A stretch of DNA of 28,424 nt from a virus, in the IMG/VR virus record IMGVR_UViG_3300025137_000199, positions 1-28,424 of that record; one strand, 5' to 3'. The number at the start of each line of letters is the position of its first letter. The first letter of the stretch is position 1. Of this stretch, positions 1 through 28,424 are shown piece after piece. Position numbers and translations under genes: made by a program. A model generated the notes under the pieces. It made no database searches and had not been told where the DNA came from. It saw only the letters and a list, made by a program, of their open reading frames with translations.

Positions 1-812
1 GTTCTATCAGCACCAAAACGTGCTACATCACAACTTATGTATTTATCACCTTCAACTCCTTGTTGACTAAACATATTTAAGATTGCATCATATTGTATTA
101 GACTATCATTAGTTGCATCATATTCCCAATTACCAAATAAAAGTCTTTGTTTGCTTAACTCATCAAGTTCAGATAGTTGTTTTTCATAATGCTTTGATAT
201 ATAGGCATTGTCACCAACTAAACTTTGTATAAACTTTCTATAAGGCTTAATAGTGCCATCTTTAGCAGGTCTGTAGTACTCAGTATAAACCCAGTTCTTT
301 GCAGGGTTACAAGTCATTAGCATTTTAGGTATTAAGTTGTTTTCATCTAGCTTGTATCTTAATCTTGATGCAACAACATTCTTTGCTTTTTCTGTTATTT
401 GATTTGCCTCATCAATAAAAGCACCTGTTATTTCTAAAGACCCTAAGCTATCAAAGTTTCTGTCAGATGGATATAAAAATAAGTCTTTAAGTATTATCTC
501 TGAGCCATTAAAAAAGGTTATAACATTGCTTGAACCATTAAAGGTGTAGTCCTCAATAGCTTTTAGATTCCAGGCTGTACAAACTTCAAAGAAAGTATTT
601 AGTGTTGTCTTTTTTAAAGCATCTAGCTTTGACCTTCCCATTAAGTATCTTGTACGTGGGTACTCAATACACATTAAGATTAAATAACTTACACCAACCC
701 AAGACTTACCACCACCTGCTGCACCTCCAAACAATACTTCTGTTGTCTTATTGTCAAGCAAGTATTTTAAACACTCTTTTTGAGTCTTAGTAAATTCAGG
801 ATTAATCTCCAA
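1..812 (-). CDS. terL: Terminase large subunit (TerL), N-terminal ATPase part, 3' end outside window
   Basis: This is the packaging motor ATPase that pumps phage DNA into the prohead and cuts it. About 270 codons are visible. A Walker A motif, GGAAGGGKS, lies at residues 29-37. A Walker B-like FIDEAN lies near residue 133. A CDVARFGAD stretch at the window edge fits the first catalytic Asp of the RNase H-like nuclease domain. The frame has no ATG upstream of Walker A. An in-frame stop at 818-816 leaves TTG at 812 (or ATT at 806) as the start, inside the last codons of terS, so translation is probably coupled. The rest of the nuclease domain lies left of position 1. The function is well supported by the motifs; the exact start is an inference. 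Confidence 0.93.
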   Translation of the reverse strand, partial: MEINPEFTKTQKECLKYLLDNKTTEVLFGGAAGGGKSWVGVSYLILMCIEYPRTRYLMGRSKLDALKKTTLNTFFEVCTAWNLKAIEDYTFNGSSNVITFFNGSEIILKDLFLYPSDRNFDSLGSLEITGAFIDEANQITEKAKNVVASRLRYKLDENNLIPKMLMTCNPAKNWVYTEYYRPAKDGTIKPYRKFIQSLVGDNAYISKHYEKQLSELDELSKQRLLFGNWEYDATNDSLIQYDAILNMFSQQGVEGDKYISCDVARFGADR

Positions 813-2775: not shown

Positions 2776-3033
2776 TTATTTATAAGGATCATTGACACCT
2801 CTTTCACCTACTAGCTTTTCTTTTGCCCCTTCCCATAACTTGTCATGTCTTTTTTTTTTACTTAATGATGCTTCTGTTCTTTTAAGACTAGGCATACCTT
2901 CAAGAGGTTGAGAATCCATGTATTTGCCACAACTACACATGACATCAGCAACCCAGTTTTTATCTCTATAGACTATCTTAGCTTTAGAGACTTCTTTAGT
3001 TTCTTTTTTACATTCACAGGCGTATAGTGTCAT
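2776..3033 (-). CDS. Small conserved phage protein with zinc-ribbon-like cysteines
   Basis: An 85-residue protein of unknown function. Two cysteine pairs, C6-x-C8 near the N-terminus and C33-x-C35 (MCSCGKYM), could bind one zinc ion. The C-terminal half is basic (LSKKKRHDKLWEGAKEKL). Its ATG overlaps the stop of the DUF3310 gene as ATGA, so translation is coupled. The start and reading frame are well supported by this junction and by the dense gene packing around it. It sits between the DUF3310 gene and the ParB-like gene in the early block. I do not recognise a named family with certainty. Confidence 0.7.
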   Translation of the reverse strand: MTLYACECKKETKEVSKAKIVYRDKNWVADVMCSCGKYMDSQPLEGMPSLKRTEASLSKKKRHDKLWEGAKEKLVGERGVNDPYK

Positions 3034-3684: not shown

Positions 3685-3772
3685 CCTTTACTGAGTAATA
3701 TGGTTGCCTCCAGTCTGGGTGTTTAAAACCAAAATGCATGAAAAAAGTGTCGTGTGTTTTTGGGTTATACAT
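3677..3772 (-). CDS. 31-residue micro-ORF, soluble, aromatic-rich
   Basis: This short frame fills exactly the gap between the sigma-like gene and the zinc-binding gene. It begins MYNPKTHDTFFMHFGFKH, continues PDWRQPYYSVKDE, and overlaps both neighbours by 8 bases (ATGTATAA at its start, ATGAATAA at its end), the same junction used by other genes in this block. It is rich in aromatic residues and histidine and has no membrane segment. The junction geometry is the main evidence that it is real. Its function is unknown. Confidence 0.6.
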   Translation of the reverse strand: MYNPKTHDTFFMHFGFKHPDWRQPYYSVKDE

Positions 3773-4337
3773 CTTCATTTAATTTTTTTTTAATTATTGT
3801 TCTTACTTTGTCTATTGTTGTAAATAAGCTATTCCTACTTATTTTTGTTTTTTCTGCTAATGAGTTGTAAGTATTTTTATCATAATAATACAGCTTAAAT
3901 AATTCACGATCATACCATTTTAATTTATCAAGCTCTACATCGATTAATTCTAATTGATGCAAAGTTTTTGTGTGATCAAAATCTTCATTTTCATTAGCAA
4001 TATTGTATAAATTTTTATGTGAAATGACAAAATCTGATTCATAAGTAATGTTGCTTGATGATGAATCAATATGATTATAATACTTATCTATTTTGTAATA
4101 AAAATTGCTTCTCTTGCTGGTCAAAGATCTTCTTAAAGCAACTGCGCCATATTTTAAAATTCCTTTAATACCATCATTAGTATATATTTTTTTTATAACT
4201 TCTGGGTTTGCTTGTAAAAAATAAAGCATTAATTCTTGTACAGCTTCATTTACTCTATTCTCATCTGTTGTTATACCATAAGCCATAGTCCTAAACTTTT
4301 CTGTTAGCTTTGATATTTCAACATAAATATCAGTCAT
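3765..4337 (-). CDS. Sigma-70-like RNA polymerase factor (phage type)
   Basis: A 190-residue protein whose C-terminal part (about 136-190) looks like sigma region 4: WYDRELFKLYYYDKNTYNSL, then AEKTKISRNSLFTTIDKVR, a helix-turn-helix that would contact minus-35-type elements. The N-terminal 110 residues are helical and could be a divergent region 2 (AVALRRSLTSKRSNFYYKID), but the canonical minus-10-melting motif is not recognisable. Similar small proteins are frequent in flavobacterial phages. Its ATG overlaps the upstream gene by 8 bases (ATGACTGA). It could direct host RNA polymerase to phage promoters, for instance for late genes, or act only as an HTH regulator. The DNA-binding part is the safest inference. 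Confidence 0.72.
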   Translation of the reverse strand: MTDIYVEISKLTEKFRTMAYGITTDENRVNEAVQELMLYFLQANPEVIKKIYTNDGIKGILKYGAVALRRSLTSKRSNFYYKIDKYYNHIDSSSSNITYESDFVISHKNLYNIANENEDFDHTKTLHQLELIDVELDKLKWYDRELFKLYYYDKNTYNSLAEKTKISRNSLFTTIDKVRTIIKKKLNEDV

Positions 4338-9938: not shown

Positions 9939-10424
9939 TTATTTGTTTTTGATTATTAAATTAATATTTGTGCCTCCCAAATTTATTATTTCTTTAATAA
10001 GTAAATCCATTGCTAAGGTTGAATTGTGAACAATGTTCTGTTGACTACCTTGTCCAACAAGGATACACCCTCTAGTGTCTTTAGCTGTATTTCCTCTGTG
10101 AAATAATATATATGATCGGTCTTTGACTTCTTGTACTAATAAATGCAAATAGTTTCTTGTTGCACTTTCTCTTGGGTATCTTAATCTTACCTTATACTCG
10201 CCTGCTGGAATGCAAGATATACTTCTTTGATTATCTCTATATGGTAACTCTAAAGTGTCACAAAACCTTTCTCCATTAACAAATAACTCACCGATAGTTG
10301 ATTCATCAGTAAAGGTATCACGAATGATTAAAAGGTTTATGTAATTAGGTTTAGAGATAGGTTGTTTTATAGATTTTGCACCCCTTAACATTTCCAACAA
10401 GTACCTGAAGCACTTTAGCATCAT
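9939..10424 (-). CDS. DUF5675 family protein, probable cell-wall-acting enzyme
   Basis: A 161-residue protein of the DUF5675 type. The core has GELFVNGERFCDTLELPYRD, then CIPAGEYKVRLRYPRES, then a histidine-cysteine region YILFHRGNTAKDTRGCILVG. The H...G-x-x...T-x-G-C-I arrangement resembles the L,D-transpeptidase (YkuD) active site, with the Cys as possible nucleophile. In Bacteroidota phages this family sits in the lysis position, next to holin-like genes, so it may be a peptidoglycan-active lysis protein. That activity is an inference. The first 27 residues are poorly conserved in character, and ATGs at 10424, 10421 or 10391 could start it. Confidence 0.72.
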   Translation of the reverse strand: MMLKCFRYLLEMLRGAKSIKQPISKPNYINLLIIRDTFTDESTIGELFVNGERFCDTLELPYRDNQRSISCIPAGEYKVRLRYPRESATRNYLHLLVQEVKDRSYILFHRGNTAKDTRGCILVGQGSQQNIVHNSTLAMDLLIKEIINLGGTNINLIIKNK

Positions 10425-10475
10425 TCTCTTTGTTTTTTTTATACTTTGGGTTTGTACTATTTAGCTTAGTTCGTT

Positions 10476-10571
10476 TCATTTGCAACCCTTAAAACCACAA
10501 TTACCACACCACTTTAAGCAATAAGTTTGCCCTGTTAATTTATATATAAGATTGCATATTAGTTTTTTCAT
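10476..10571 (-). CDS. 31-residue cysteine-rich micro-ORF
   Basis: The frame begins MKKLICNLIYKLTGQTY and ends CLKWCGNCGFKGCK, with five cysteines (6, 18, 22, 25, 30) and a net positive charge. The C-terminal cysteine cluster could bind a zinc ion. Its ATG overlaps the stop of the preceding membrane-protein ORF as ATGA. It accounts for part of an otherwise empty stretch between 10425 and 10804. Short cysteine-rich peptides at this place are common in Bacteroidota phages, but their role is unknown. Confidence 0.5.
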   Translation of the reverse strand: MKKLICNLIYKLTGQTYCLKWCGNCGFKGCK

Positions 10572-10723
10572 TTCTTAAATTTTACGAATTTATAAATAGT
10601 GAAACTAATCGCTAATAAAAGCGATAATAAAGTTAGATATTCATTAACTTCTCCAACTAGGGAAACCCCTATTGCGGAGCCGTTAGCTATTCCTACTTGT
10701 ATTGTGTCTCTTAGGTCTGTCAT
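10568..10723 (-). CDS. 51-residue membrane protein, holin-like
   Basis: The frame begins MTDLRDTIQVGIANGSAIGV and continues to a clear membrane helix, YLTLLSLLLAISFTIYKFV (residues about 29-47), ending KFKK. One N-terminal amphipathic region plus one membrane helix with a basic cytoplasmic tail is typical of small phage membrane proteins found beside lysis genes. It overlaps the 31-codon ORF as ATGA. Together with the 60-residue protein downstream it may form a holin and anti-holin pair, which is only a suggestion. Confidence 0.6.
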   Translation of the reverse strand: MTDLRDTIQVGIANGSAIGVSLVGEVNEYLTLLSLLLAISFTIYKFVKFKK

Positions 10724-10805
10724 TGTTTTTTGTATTAGGCTTTTTTTCCAAGTAGGATTTAAGCTTTGTTATGTTTTTTGTTTTTGGTTTATAGTGTTTC
10801 TTCAT
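10683..10805 (-). CDS. 40-residue highly basic ORF, doubtful
   Basis: A frame beginning MKKHYKPKTKNITKLKSYLE starts at an ATG overlapping the adaptor gene's stop (TAATG). It is almost entirely basic and polar, with no hydrophobic core, and overlaps the membrane-protein ORF by 41 bases in another frame. It may serve mainly to carry ribosomes to the next start. The rest of the 10425-10804 stretch is explained by this and the two neighbouring small ORFs, with no RNA gene or terminator seen. Confidence 0.3.
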   Translation of the reverse strand: MKKHYKPKTKNITKLKSYLEKKPNTKNNDRPKRHNTSRNS

Positions 10806-11377
10806 TAATCTCCAGCAGTTAAAAAGTTTCTTAATGTTATTTCTGTTCCCTGTCTATTAGGTCTTTCTAGGTTCATGCCATTATAAAATGCATTTTGATC
10901 TGGCGAAACGTCTGAACCAGAATTTGTATTATACTCAGGAAAGCTAGATAAGTTGTTTGTCACATAATCAATCATTCGCTCTGTATAGTATTCAGATGTA
11001 TTTCTTATCTCTTCCCTTAGGTGTTGTGCCTCTTCAGTAGAAAGTGAATTTCCTGTCTCTGATGTTTTAGAATAAATGTTTCCGTTTTCTATCTTAAAAC
11101 GCAAGAACGGAACAGCATGATAAAACGCCCAGTTTGGAAGCATGTCGCCAATATAGTCTTCTAATAAAGTCTTGTAAGCTGCATTAGCAACATCACCAAT
11201 TGTTCCTGCTGTAATTAAATCTTTTAATTTTTGTGTTAAATCCGTTCCTAATTTAGGTTCAACATATAGTTTTTGTGCTTGCCTTACATACGGTAATAAT
11301 AATTCCGTATCGACATTTAGGTTTATTGCAGTCGATTCAGCGAGCTTCTGTTGTGAGATAAAGAGTACGTATGACAT
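10805..11377 (-). CDS. Head-tail connector/adaptor protein (DUF6712-like)
   Basis: A 190-residue protein directly after the portal gene. The sequence is helical and includes VDTELLLPYVRQAQKLYVEP, then LGTDLTQKLKDLI, then WAFYHAVPFLRFKIENGNIY, a layout typical of Bacteroidota phage connector proteins of the DUF6712 type (gp6/gp15-like head completion). It should form a ring under the portal and link the head to the tail. The C-terminus is polar, with several Asn and Gly residues. The start follows the portal stop by two bases. The role rests on position and family resemblance. Confidence 0.72.
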   Translation of the reverse strand: MSYVLFISQQKLAESTAINLNVDTELLLPYVRQAQKLYVEPKLGTDLTQKLKDLITAGTIGDVANAAYKTLLEDYIGDMLPNWAFYHAVPFLRFKIENGNIYSKTSETGNSLSTEEAQHLREEIRNTSEYYTERMIDYVTNNLSSFPEYNTNSGSDVSPDQNAFYNGMNLERPNRQGTEITLRNFLTAGD

Positions 11378-14069: not shown

Positions 14070-14333
14070 TTATTCTTTATAGCCTACACCTATTCCGCTC
14101 GTCAGAGTAATAGCTGTAACGTTCATAAATAGTGTTGTACCCGCTGGAAGAGTTGTTTGTAATGCAGTTACACCAGTTACACTAGCGGCTGTTATTGAGG
14201 ATACCACGCTTTCTACTGGAAAGTAAACACAGTAAAAGTCTTTGCCTGTTTGTGCTACTGTTGTAAAAACTTCTGTTCCTGCATTTTTTCCTAGTTGCTC
14301 AGTTAGTAATTGTTGTACGTTTTCTATTGCCAT
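14070..14333 (-). CDS. Small beta-rich virion-associated protein
   Basis: An 87-residue protein with a helical start (IENVQQLLTEQLGKNAGTEV) and then alternating short strands with Ser/Thr/Val (DFYCVYFPVESVVSSITAAS, TLFMNVTAITLTSGIG). It resembles small structural proteins found in phage head or fibre modules, possibly with a partial link to the LamG-like protein that begins two bases after its stop. I do not assign a specific part of the particle. Confidence 0.6.
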   Translation of the reverse strand: MAIENVQQLLTEQLGKNAGTEVFTTVAQTGKDFYCVYFPVESVVSSITAASVTGVTALQTTLPAGTTLFMNVTAITLTSGIGVGYKE

Positions 14334-14344
14334 TTTTTTTTATT

Positions 14345-18247: not shown

Positions 18248-20128
18248 TTAAATTGTTGCTCTTCTTCTAATATTTGCAAGCTGGTTTTGCGATGACGTCA
18301 TTTCATCTGTTACAACGAAGGCTTTTACTGGTTCTGGTTCTTCTACTCCTGATAAATCAAAAGCTCCTGACATCATTTGTGGGGCTGGGGGTGTTGGAGC
18401 AGTTCCTCCACCTCCACCTCCTCCACCTCCTCCACCATCGCCTGTTGATGCAATAGCGTTAACATTAGCAATACCTGCTGCAATTGCTGCACCAGCAGCT
18501 ACTGCCCCAAGTCCTGGTCCTACGACAGGTATTCCAGCCATTGCCTTATAAGCAGCATTTGCAGAGGCAAAAGTGTCAATTGTGGCTTGTGTTATTGCAA
18601 AAGCCTTTCCTGCTGCTGTTTCTTCACCCATTATTTTAGCCATGTCACCAGCTGTATCTGAGGCAATACCAAGCTGCTGTTCTTGTGTCATTTCTGAAAA
18701 TTTGACTTGTTGTTTATCAAACTTTTTACCTAAGTCACCTCTTTTCCTGTCAAACTTCTTTCTTATTTCTTCTTTAACAAGTTCTGAATTTTCCATTAAC
18801 TCTGCACTAGCCAATTCTTTTTCTTCTTGTATTCTTAGCTCTTCCATAGCTCTTGTCTTCAAGTCTTCTATTAAAGCTAATGTGTTTTCTTGTTGTAAAG
18901 CTAGTAAAACTTCACCCTCTCTTTTTCTTTTTTCTTCAAGTGCTAAATCATCAGCTTCACCTTGCAATCTTATTTCTTCTTTTTGTGCTTTTTCTTCATT
19001 TACTGCTGTTGTTATTTGTGTTTGTAATAACCTTTGGCTTCTTAGTTTTTTAGTATCTAATTGAATTAATTCAGCCTGCATTTGTGCTAGCTTGTCTTTG
19101 TCTTCAATAGTGTTTTTACCCTGAGCCATTTCTTGCTTTTGGGCTTCTATTAAAATTCTTTTAGCTCTAATTTCTTTGTTTGTAATATCCTCTTCTATTG
19201 CCTGCGCTCTTCTAAGCAGTTCAATTCTTTCTGTTGCACTTTTGTTTTCTCTATCTTCAGCTTGTAACCTAATATCATTTATTTCTCTATCTGCTTTAGC
19301 CCTATCTACTTGCAGCTGCCTTTGTATATGGTGTGCTTTCTGCCTAGCTTTAGTAACAGCAATCATTGCATCAACCTCTTTTGAAGTTTCATCTACCATT
19401 GTTTTGACTGCGGCTGTTGTTTTTGCTACAACTGCTATTGTAGAACCTAAAGGGTCTTTAAAAAATTTAAAAAGCCCATCTTTAAAAGATTTAAGGGCTT
19501 TCATTGGGCTTGTAAATGCTTCAATAATAGATTCGCCAAAGTCAGCAAACATATCCATCAATTGGTTGGTTACCGCACCAATACCAGCCATTATTCTTTG
19601 AAATTTTTCTTGACCTTTTTCTGACCTTTTAAAAGCTGCCATTAATGCAGATACACCAATAATTAAAGCACCAATACCTGTTGACATTATACCTGCCTTA
19701 ATAGTGCCAAACATTGCCCTTGCAGTAGGTATTATTTGCCTAAAACCTTTTTTTATACCATTAAGAGAAAGACCCATAAACTGAAAGTTTGCAATACTTT
19801 CTTTTGTTTCTTTATTGTTTTCTTTTTCAGCTTTAGTTAATTCTTTTTGTTGGTCTGTTAAACCTTTGACATGGTGAGTCTGTTGCTTTGTTTCAAGACT
19901 AATTTCCTCTAATTTTTTATCAATACCTGTAAGGCTTTTTTCATAATCATTCATACCAGCCCTAGCCTTTTTCAATTCTAGCTCTTGACCTTTTAATTCA
20001 TGAAGTATTTGTTTTTGAAGTTTTAAATCTTCATTAACCTCATCTAGAGTCATTACATACTCTTTTACGTCTTTTGTAGCACTCTTAGTGTTACCCTTAA
20101 TTTCTACTTCTATTGTTTCTTTTGCCAT
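18248..20128 (-). CDS. Tape measure protein
   Basis: A 626-residue protein. It has an N-terminal helical, charged region with coiled coils, a hydrophobic stretch at 143-166 (IKAGIMSTGIGALIIGVSAL), a long coiled coil at about 260-520 rich in E, K and R, and a second hydrophobic C-terminal region (KAMAGIPVVGPGLGAVAAGA, then AIAAGIANVNAI). This is the standard layout of a siphophage tape measure, which sets tail length and enters the host membrane during DNA delivery. A run of 11 glycines (565-575) precedes the C-terminal tail. The length suggests a short to medium tail. Confidence 0.87.
   Translation of the reverse strand: MAKETIEVEIKGNTKSATKDVKEYVMTLDEVNEDLKLQKQILHELKGQELELKKARAGMNDYEKSLTGIDKKLEEISLETKQQTHHVKGLTDQQKELTKAEKENNKETKESIANFQFMGLSLNGIKKGFRQIIPTARAMFGTIKAGIMSTGIGALIIGVSALMAAFKRSEKGQEKFQRIMAGIGAVTNQLMDMFADFGESIIEAFTSPMKALKSFKDGLFKFFKDPLGSTIAVVAKTTAAVKTMVDETSKEVDAMIAVTKARQKAHHIQRQLQVDRAKADREINDIRLQAEDRENKSATERIELLRRAQAIEEDITNKEIRAKRILIEAQKQEMAQGKNTIEDKDKLAQMQAELIQLDTKKLRSQRLLQTQITTAVNEEKAQKEEIRLQGEADDLALEEKRKREGEVLLALQQENTLALIEDLKTRAMEELRIQEEKELASAELMENSELVKEEIRKKFDRKRGDLGKKFDKQQVKFSEMTQEQQLGIASDTAGDMAKIMGEETAAGKAFAITQATIDTFASANAAYKAMAGIPVVGPGLGAVAAGAAIAAGIANVNAIASTGDGGGGGGGGGGGTAPTPPAPQMMSGAFDLSGVEEPEPVKAFVVTDEMTSSQNQLANIRRRATI
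18404..18436 (-). repeat. GGN codon run encoding eleven glycines
   Basis: Thirty-three bases of GGT/GGA codons (CCACC/CCTCC on the plus strand) encode Gly565-Gly575 of the tape measure. Such a low-complexity tract could vary in length by slippage and probably acts as a flexible linker. Confidence 0.85.
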
Positions 20129-27100: not shown

Positions 27101-27186
27101 AGTTTTATTTTTATTGTTGGTGGTATTATCTTAATTTCTACTTTACCAATCTTTATCGTATTTAATTTTTTTAAGAACTCTATCAT
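27097..27186 (-). CDS. 29-residue basic/hydrophobic micro-ORF
   Basis: The frame MIEFLKKLNTIKIGKVEIK followed by IIPPTIKIKL fills exactly the 85-base gap between two virion genes. Its ATG overlaps the upstream stop (TAATG) and its TGA overlaps the downstream ATG (ATGA). The alternating hydrophobic and lysine residues could make a short beta hairpin or a membrane-associated peptide. The double coupling is the main evidence; it may simply bridge ribosomes between the two larger genes. Confidence 0.5.
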   Translation of the reverse strand: MIEFLKKLNTIKIGKVEIKIIPPTIKIKL

Positions 27187-27731
27187 TAGTATCCTGCTCC
27201 TTTAGTGTTAACTGGTATGTCGCATGTACTAAAGTCATTTATTACCTTAATACCTATTGTAAATGTCCAGCCACAAAGTAAATTGTCGAACCTTTCTTGA
27301 AATGGCTCAATAGTAAACTGGTCCTCTGTAAAATAAAGAGGCTCATTAATATCATCAACACCTAATAATGATTGCCTTGAGCTATGCCTAAGCATTCCTA
27401 TAAAGTCAGTACAAATATCTAGCGTTTGATTCCAAACTTGCTGTTCATTATTCTTAGTGTCTACCAGCTTAGTTAGTTCCTTATTTTGTTGTACCTGCCA
27501 ATTATCTTTTTCACTTACTAAGTCGCATATAAATAATTGAAAGTTATATATTAATTCTGAATCGCCAGTTGCAACATTAGTTGGGTTTATATGTAGCAAA
27601 GGCATTTTAGTCTGATTCATGTCAATGTCAAATATATCACCAACAGAAACTGTAGATATTTGTTCATGATACTCACCTAAACGACACAAAGTGTTTATTA
27701 CGTTATTATATGTTTTATTGCTTACTGGCAT
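27186..27731 (-). CDS. Tail completion/neck-like protein
   Basis: A 181-residue protein of a family conserved in Bacteroidota siphophages. It includes VSVGDIFDIDMNQTKMPLLH, INPTNVATGDSELIYNFQLF and, at the end, FTEDQFTIEPFQERFDNLLC followed by GWTFTIGIKV. Proteins of this type resemble tail-terminator or neck proteins, in which a beta sandwich with one helix forms a ring on the head or tail. It is preceded by the tail-assembly-chaperone-like gene, whose -1 product overlaps its start by 17 bases. The role is inferred from position and overall type. Confidence 0.65.
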   Translation of the reverse strand: MPVSNKTYNNVINTLCRLGEYHEQISTVSVGDIFDIDMNQTKMPLLHINPTNVATGDSELIYNFQLFICDLVSEKDNWQVQQNKELTKLVDTKNNEQQVWNQTLDICTDFIGMLRHSSRQSLLGVDDINEPLYFTEDQFTIEPFQERFDNLLCGWTFTIGIKVINDFSTCDIPVNTKGAGY

Positions 27732-28424
27732 ACTTTACTTTATTTTGTGATTCTAAATCTGTTTCATAACTTAACCATGTTAGTGCTTCTAAAAGATTGA
27801 GCTTCGTAATTGCATCTAGTTTTGAAATATCTGCATTTGTCAATCTATACATTACACCAAACCATGACCACTTTTCAGCGAATGAATCTGATGCTATTGC
27901 TTTATCATTCCCGTCTGCTTGCGAATCAAAAACGATTGCAAAATCATTAATAATACCTGTGCGAAATGATAAAAAAAAACCAGTGCACTTTGCACTTGCT
28001 CTATTGCCATGTTTTTCATTTGCTCTGCCCTTATACTTATATTGCCATCATAGGCTTCTATAGTATAAACCCCACTACTTGTTTCTTCTACAATCGGTCT
28101 ATAAAGAACCGACATCAACTCAGGTAAATTCTTTTGAATGTCATTCTTTATAAAGTTCTCAATATCTGCATATTCGCCTAACGTAATACTATCTAAGTCA
28201 GGATGAAACCCATATCGTTTACCTTCTATTTCAATCACTCTTTTTAAAGAACTATCCTCATTCTTTTGTAGGTCAGCAACCTTTCCCATTATATATGCCA
28301 CATCTTTTAATTCCAATTGATCAATGACATTTTTTGGAATATCAGAAAGGGTTGATATTGTTTCTCTCGCTTCTTTTGTTTTTGATCCTGTCTTTAAACT
28401 TACCAGTTTTAACCACTTTTCTAA
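27715..28424 (-). CDS. Tail-assembly-chaperone-like protein with -1 frameshift, 5' end outside window
   Basis: The frame runs from the right edge without a stop, so the true start lies beyond 28424; TTG at 28316 is only an internal codon. Zero-frame translation ends at 27894. A -1 shift at the nine-T tract (27979-27971) instead continues for 85 codons to 27715. The joined product continues KRVIEIEGKRYGFHPDLDS and AIEQVQSALVFF with LSFRTGIINDFAIVF, then FAEKWSWFGVMYRLTNADIS and KLNLLEALTWLSYETDLES, which matches the N- and C-terminal halves of a single Bacteroidota phage family. Frameshifted tail chaperones (like lambda G/GT) fold around the tape measure. A sequencing error in the T run would give the same fused frame. 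Confidence 0.72.
27972..27978 (-). other. Putative -1 ribosomal frameshift slippery site U UUU UUU
   Basis: On the minus strand the zero-frame codons GTT TTT TTT TAT contain the heptamer T TTT TTT in the correct phase for simultaneous slippage of two tRNAs. The -1 frame then reads TTA TCA TTT CGC and stays open for 85 codons. No downstream pseudoknot was modelled. Confidence 0.55.

Follow-up and report, generated by a model that had tools for sequence, protein, structure and literature searches.

The gene cut by one end of this contig, which comes from a marine bacterial virus, raises the question of whether its two overlapping reading frames are read as a single protein and, if they are, whether RNA polymerase or the ribosome makes the change of frame. 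The window analysed here is a whole IMG/VR viral record of 28,424 bp, with nearly all of its coding on the minus strand. On that strand the gene reads GAG CAA GTG CAA AGT GCA CTG GTT TTT TTT TAT CAT TTC, around a slippery run (TTTTTTTTT, 27971..27979) of exactly nine T's. The zero frame crosses the run as GTT TTT TTT TAT and encodes the short, G-like form (27894..28424, minus strand, 176 codons in the window), whose tail past the run (27894..27971) consists of 25 codons and a stop at 27896-27894. Overlapping this tail, the -1 frame encodes a T-like C-terminal domain of 85 codons (27715..27972, minus strand; stop at 27717-27715) with the sequence LSFRTG...FAEKWSWFGVMYRLT...LTWLSYETDL..., and the +1 frame shuts after 7 codons. 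T2 to T8 of the run (27978-27972) form a T_TTT_TTT heptamer in phase for -1 slippage, and the fusion junction, VFF-LSFR, would be identical whichever machine slipped. The original prediction had described the nine T's, the phase of the heptamer, the zero-frame stop at 27894 after 25 codons and the 85 open codons of the -1 frame just as they stand; it had also called the zero-frame tail uncharacteristic, and in this it was mistaken, as a conserved LVFF[YW] stretch normally runs on into this tail.

Genes around the junction

Since the window is the entire IMG/VR contig, the frameshift gene is truncated at 28424, and the 24 N-terminal codons missing from it are supplied by a near-identical relative, L003. 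The same relative also supplies the gene before the truncated one, that of the large terminase, and the opposite end of the window carries 270 codons from the start of this terminase gene (3..812, minus strand, truncated by that contig end). Placement of the terminase directly upstream is taken from L003, L005, L012, L022, L030 and the isolate phage P12024L, and the order runs from large terminase to frameshift gene to a gene of 181 aa; the tape measure follows after several further genes. The two contig ends (1-812 and 27894-28424) thus sit in the large terminase and the gene that follows it. Because relatives set these ends ~0.7 kb apart, the record is a nearly complete genome opened at this place; the genome is circular or terminally permuted, and ~0.7 kb of it is absent between the window ends.

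The 181-aa gene (27186..27731, minus strand) begins at an ATG at 27731 and shares its first 17 nt with the end of the -1 frame; it is the positional counterpart of P12024L gp42 and probably encodes a tail-completion or terminator-type protein. The tape-measure protein gene lies at 18248..20128 on the minus strand and matches phrog_9483 and phrog_3336 (tail length tape measure protein). The frameshift gene had been placed two steps from neck genes, which is right in part, its immediate neighbour being the large terminase that it follows.

The coding strand of the window holds other homopolymers as well: an A10 run (2850-2859) inside an 85-aa gene (2776-3033), where it encodes a Lys run, an A9 run (3783-3791) at the end of the gene at 3765-4337 (IIKKKLNEDV) and an A9 run (14333-14341) at the start of the gene at 14070-14333. 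The first two of these could also slip.

Conservation of the run and selection on the frames

We tabulated 218 loci, drawn from searches of viral contigs with the N-part protein together with isolate phages and genome contigs. The run is T9 at 213 of them and T10 at 5, with T7, T8 or shorter runs at none, and the two-frame layout is present in every relative retrieved, far above chance, with protein identity falling to ~25% (the N-part is as low as 24-32% identical to the reference L003). In all loci free of contig-end truncation the -1 frame is open for 80-90 codons and its domain aligns; the +1 frame shuts within 2-18 codons in the tabulated loci. Removal of near-identical DNA leaves 120 loci, comprising 112 with canonical T9, three with T9 displaced by -1, one with T9 displaced by +2 and four with T10, and a separate search with the -1-frame C-part gave 80 loci, 79 of them T9 and one T10. 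The in-phase T_TTT_TTT is found in every locus examined, including those with a shifted run, and no other heptamer type occurs among these relatives. The Nonlabens phages P12024L and P12024S, both isolates, carry the same T9 and both frames; tblastn with the distant members L213-L216 for further isolates returned the P12024 phages or no match. Bacterial genome contigs contributed three loci only (L110, L111 and L112), in MAGs labelled Euryarchaeota and Pseudooceanicola, and these are probably mis-binned viral contigs.

The position of selection along the gene can be read from codon-position variability, which we followed in 8-codon windows across 93 distinct loci. Up to the run, the least variable zero-frame position is position 2 and the most variable is position 3. 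Directly past the run, the minimum of variability moves to zero-frame position 1, equivalent to -1-frame position 2, so that protein-coding constraint changes to the -1 frame there; constraint over the zero-frame tail likewise follows the -1 frame. The synonymous sites at the run are frozen: the Val codon is GTT in 102 of 102 cases, compared with 33% elsewhere, and the two Phe codons are TTT in 112/112 and 109/112 (221/224 together), compared with 77% elsewhere. The N and C models both match A0A516L5A8, a viral protein of 260 aa in BFVD, which is an apparent natural fusion of the two in a single ORF. Taken together, these comparisons make it almost certain that the -1 frame is joined to the first by a programmed fusion.

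Two explanations would dispense with a programmed shift, and both are rejected on comparative grounds. An error of sequencing or assembly, or decay of the gene, with ten T's and one frame as the true sequence, is scarcely credible, since homopolymers are error-prone in principle but T9 or T10 with the same layout is kept across 218 loci in many independent assemblies, two isolate genomes (P12024L and P12024S) carry the same T9, no retrieved locus joins the frames in DNA, zero-frame constraint stops and -1 constraint starts exactly at the run, and the synonymous sites there do not vary freely. The slip therefore seems to be built in.

If instead the two frames were separate overlapping genes, the -1 frame would be entered by internal initiation or by termination-reinitiation. 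P12024L and P12024S are annotated in this way, and there the ATG of the second ORF does overlap the zero-frame stop. In the window, however, the -1 frame contains no ATG, GTG or TTG between its upstream stop and a conserved Trp (KWSWF), and this lack of a common start codon makes separate initiation of the window's C-part unlikely; 100 of 112 distinct loci likewise lack an ATG in the interval. Even in P12024L the stretch from the run to the ATG (FLSFRERLRDLYPELY...) shows -1-frame conservation of its own, and a frozen run would have no reason under this arrangement. We consider separate genes very improbable.

Several features of the relatives deserve mention in their own right. A displaced T10 form, CTT TTT TTT TTC, occurs at three places on the tree (L025, L028 and L122), each beside a canonical T9 sister, which could reflect convergence or local recombination. 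Past the T9 of a distant relative, L223 (~1980), the zero and -1 frames are both open for >90 codons. The zero-frame tails of L003-L200 stop mostly at two fixed distances past the run, 25 or 39 codons, so the tail length of the short form may matter. Flavobacterium phage 6H (L217, KC959568) was tried as an outgroup and dropped, its similarity being too weak; at 10048-10927 on its minus strand it has a 191-aa gene with a fold weakly like that of the N-part, followed by ~300 nt of unannotated sequence with a C-part-like ORF in another frame and no T9 run. This region may encode an analogous chaperone whose junction differs, or may reflect an error in the record.

Polymerase or ribosome

Frameshifted tail chaperones are textbook cases of ribosomal recoding in dsDNA phages, and the original prediction proposed tandem tRNA slippage. 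Its programmed -1 switch, by which a tail-chaperone-like gene gains a conserved C-terminal domain, is upheld, the refutations that it had named having been tried without overturning it, and the ribosomal mechanism comes out as slightly less likely than slippage by the polymerase. If RNA polymerase were to slip on the nine-T run, most messages would have U9 and be translated into the short zero-frame protein of about 200 aa, and a fraction would carry an extra U. Normal translation of this U10 message would enter the -1 frame and append the 85-residue domain, for a GT-like fusion of ~260 aa. Given a programmed shift, the sequences lean somewhat toward the polymerase, because the run stays at 9 or 10 even when displaced, because nine is the length at which bacterial polymerase is reported to slip efficiently and because one clade carries a hairpin before the run.

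Relative to the frame, the run has shifted on at least five occasions in the tree (L025, L028, L122, L039 and L224-227), with a canonical sister beside each, and its length is 9 or 10 in all displaced cases. In L224-227 the last T has been lost and one gained at the front (TTG TTT TTT TTT CTG); had only the last T gone, a T8 run with its heptamer intact would have remained. According to PMC5009743, runs of nine A or T have been reported to support efficient slippage by bacterial RNA polymerase in vivo. Constant length is no proof of polymerase slippage, since coding partly fixes T1, as the second base of a Val or Leu codon, and T9, as part of a Leu or Phe codon of the -1 frame.

In the window's clade, clade A, a terminator-like hairpin (AGTGCA-AAG-TGCACT; 27982..27996, minus strand) ends 2 nt before the T run. 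It is present in 62 of 66 distinct members of the clade, a terminator scan flags it unprompted, and it has the geometry of an intrinsic terminator. Strongly biased synonymous codons keep the hairpin in place: within it Val is GTG in 57/59 (8% background), Leu is CTG or TTG in 55/59 (17%) and Ala is GCA or GCG in 56/57 (49%). The mean stem score is -12.8, compared with -5.1 under synonymous shuffling, and is near zero at anchors 15-45 nt upstream. Both T10 members of clade A are without the hairpin, against 2 of 64 T9 members, as if a longer run replaced it. Only 22% of single sequences have the hairpin at p<0.05, and covariation within clade A offers no double compensatory change, only one-sided G-U wobble, with a column shuffle that does not discriminate. 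A family-wide hairpin was considered and dropped: clade B has a mean score of -6.9, like its synonymous-codon null of -6.3, and no hairpin was found in the P12024 clade. In clade A, a nascent-RNA hairpin in the position of an intrinsic terminator stem, 2 bases before the run, would probably boost slippage, and an upstream stem-loop is reported to stimulate RNA polymerase slippage in a Roseiflexus IS (PMC5009743).

Classical -1 ribosomal frameshifting is the one rival that survives in strength. If tRNA-Phe pairs on UUU UUU slipped one base back on U_UUU_UUU, the same fusion would result, and the heptamer's phase is kept at every locus even where the run has moved. Coding accounts in part for the outer T's of the run, and ribosomal frameshifting is the best-known mechanism in tail chaperones, being the one found for all tail-chaperone frameshifts in the literature covered (PMC5009743). 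Against this, seven T's would suffice for the ribosome, yet nine is the observed minimum, and other heptamer types are absent among relatives as divergent as those described above; the same source gives U_UUU_UUU as a poorer shift site in E. coli than A_AAA_AAG. Across 112 distinct loci the search for a downstream stimulatory structure gave a mean z of ~ -0.2, not above control stretches. To judge from the ribosome footprint, the codon-constrained hairpin would moreover sit inside a ribosome that is decoding the run. Ribosomal frameshifting is accordingly a serious possibility to which we give somewhat less than an even chance, and polymerase and ribosome may both contribute.

Products and known systems

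Whichever machine slips, the two proteins probably constitute a tail-assembly chaperone pair, in which the fused domain would link complexes of the tape measure and the short form to tail subunits, as in lambda G/GT. The N-part model has a confidently predicted alpha/beta fold (pLDDT 88.6), and none of the PDB chains compared matched it well (best Z 2.5); the C-part model is weak (pLDDT 63). In sequence searches, phrog_32199 matches 32 of 32 aligned N-part members and phrog_38404 matches 11 of 25 C-part members. Pointers to tail assembly chaperones are weak: the 'tail protein' family phrog_166 is matched by 5 members and PF10109 (Phage_TAC_7) by 3 of 32 (best E=0.009), and BFVD proteins named tail assembly chaperone match at E 0.02-0.24. 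A chaperone-like role for both products is likely. The complete reading, in which polymerase slippage would set the ratio of two tail-chaperone products with the hairpin helping in clade A, has in our estimate only a little better than an even chance.

In the open literature, tail chaperones are described with ribosomal frameshifting, and transcriptional slippage is described in bacterial genes and in IS elements; within that scope we found no account of this T9 family, nor of a tail chaperone that uses transcriptional slippage. A 2016 review, in the legend of its Table 1B, names polymerase slippage in virus genomes for single-stranded RNA viruses only. A transcriptional mechanism would, as far as the literature searched reaches, be without precedent in a tailed phage, and would mean that control at the RNA level can fix the same ratio of two proteins. 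With a ribosomal shift, phrog_32199 and phrog_38404 would still be united as one fused gene, in a widespread family with hundreds of mostly metagenomic members whose present annotation is either unknown or a pair of separate ORFs. The host of the known isolates is a flavobacterium, and P12024L on its host IMCC12024 offers a testable system.

Lambda G/GT, HK97 and many other dsDNA phages likewise produce a short protein and a -1-frame fusion from one gene. The resemblance to lambda G/GT extends to a switch near the end of the first frame, within a virion-morphogenesis gene cluster, to an in-phase slippery heptamer close to that end and, at the level of conserved frames, to a short and a fusion product kept across relatives. 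In lambda-type phages, however, the gene lies directly upstream of the tape measure, after the tail tube, whereas the window's gene follows the large terminase. Its family also differs from lambda G/GT in a slip site that is always a T run of at least 9, in the terminator-like hairpin upstream in the window's clade and in having no recognisable sequence similarity beyond the weak Phage_TAC_7 matches. We have called the gene G/GT-like in working without filing it as a member, because the architecture fits and the gene position does not.

The closest known counterparts are P12024L gp40/gp41 and P12024S gp38/gp39 (phrog_32199 and phrog_38404), direct homologues whose identity to the two parts in the window is 28% and 23%. 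They share T9, both frames and a gene that follows the terminase, and differ in being annotated as two unrelated hypothetical genes, in lacking the clade-A hairpin and in the -1-frame ATG that overlaps the zero-frame stop.

Genes that use transcriptional slippage, such as Thermus thermophilus dnaX and those of Shigella type III secretion, have a run of nine A or T, as the window does, and the family as a whole has the A/T homopolymer of ~>=9 at the frame junction by which such genes are recognised. The window differs from them in being a dsDNA-phage morphogenesis gene, in that slippage at the RNA level is here putative and in that its run also holds an in-phase ribosomal heptamer. The stem-loop of the Roseiflexus IS lies immediately before the slip site and exerts its effect on RNA polymerase (PMC5009743), and the clade-A hairpin is placed alike.
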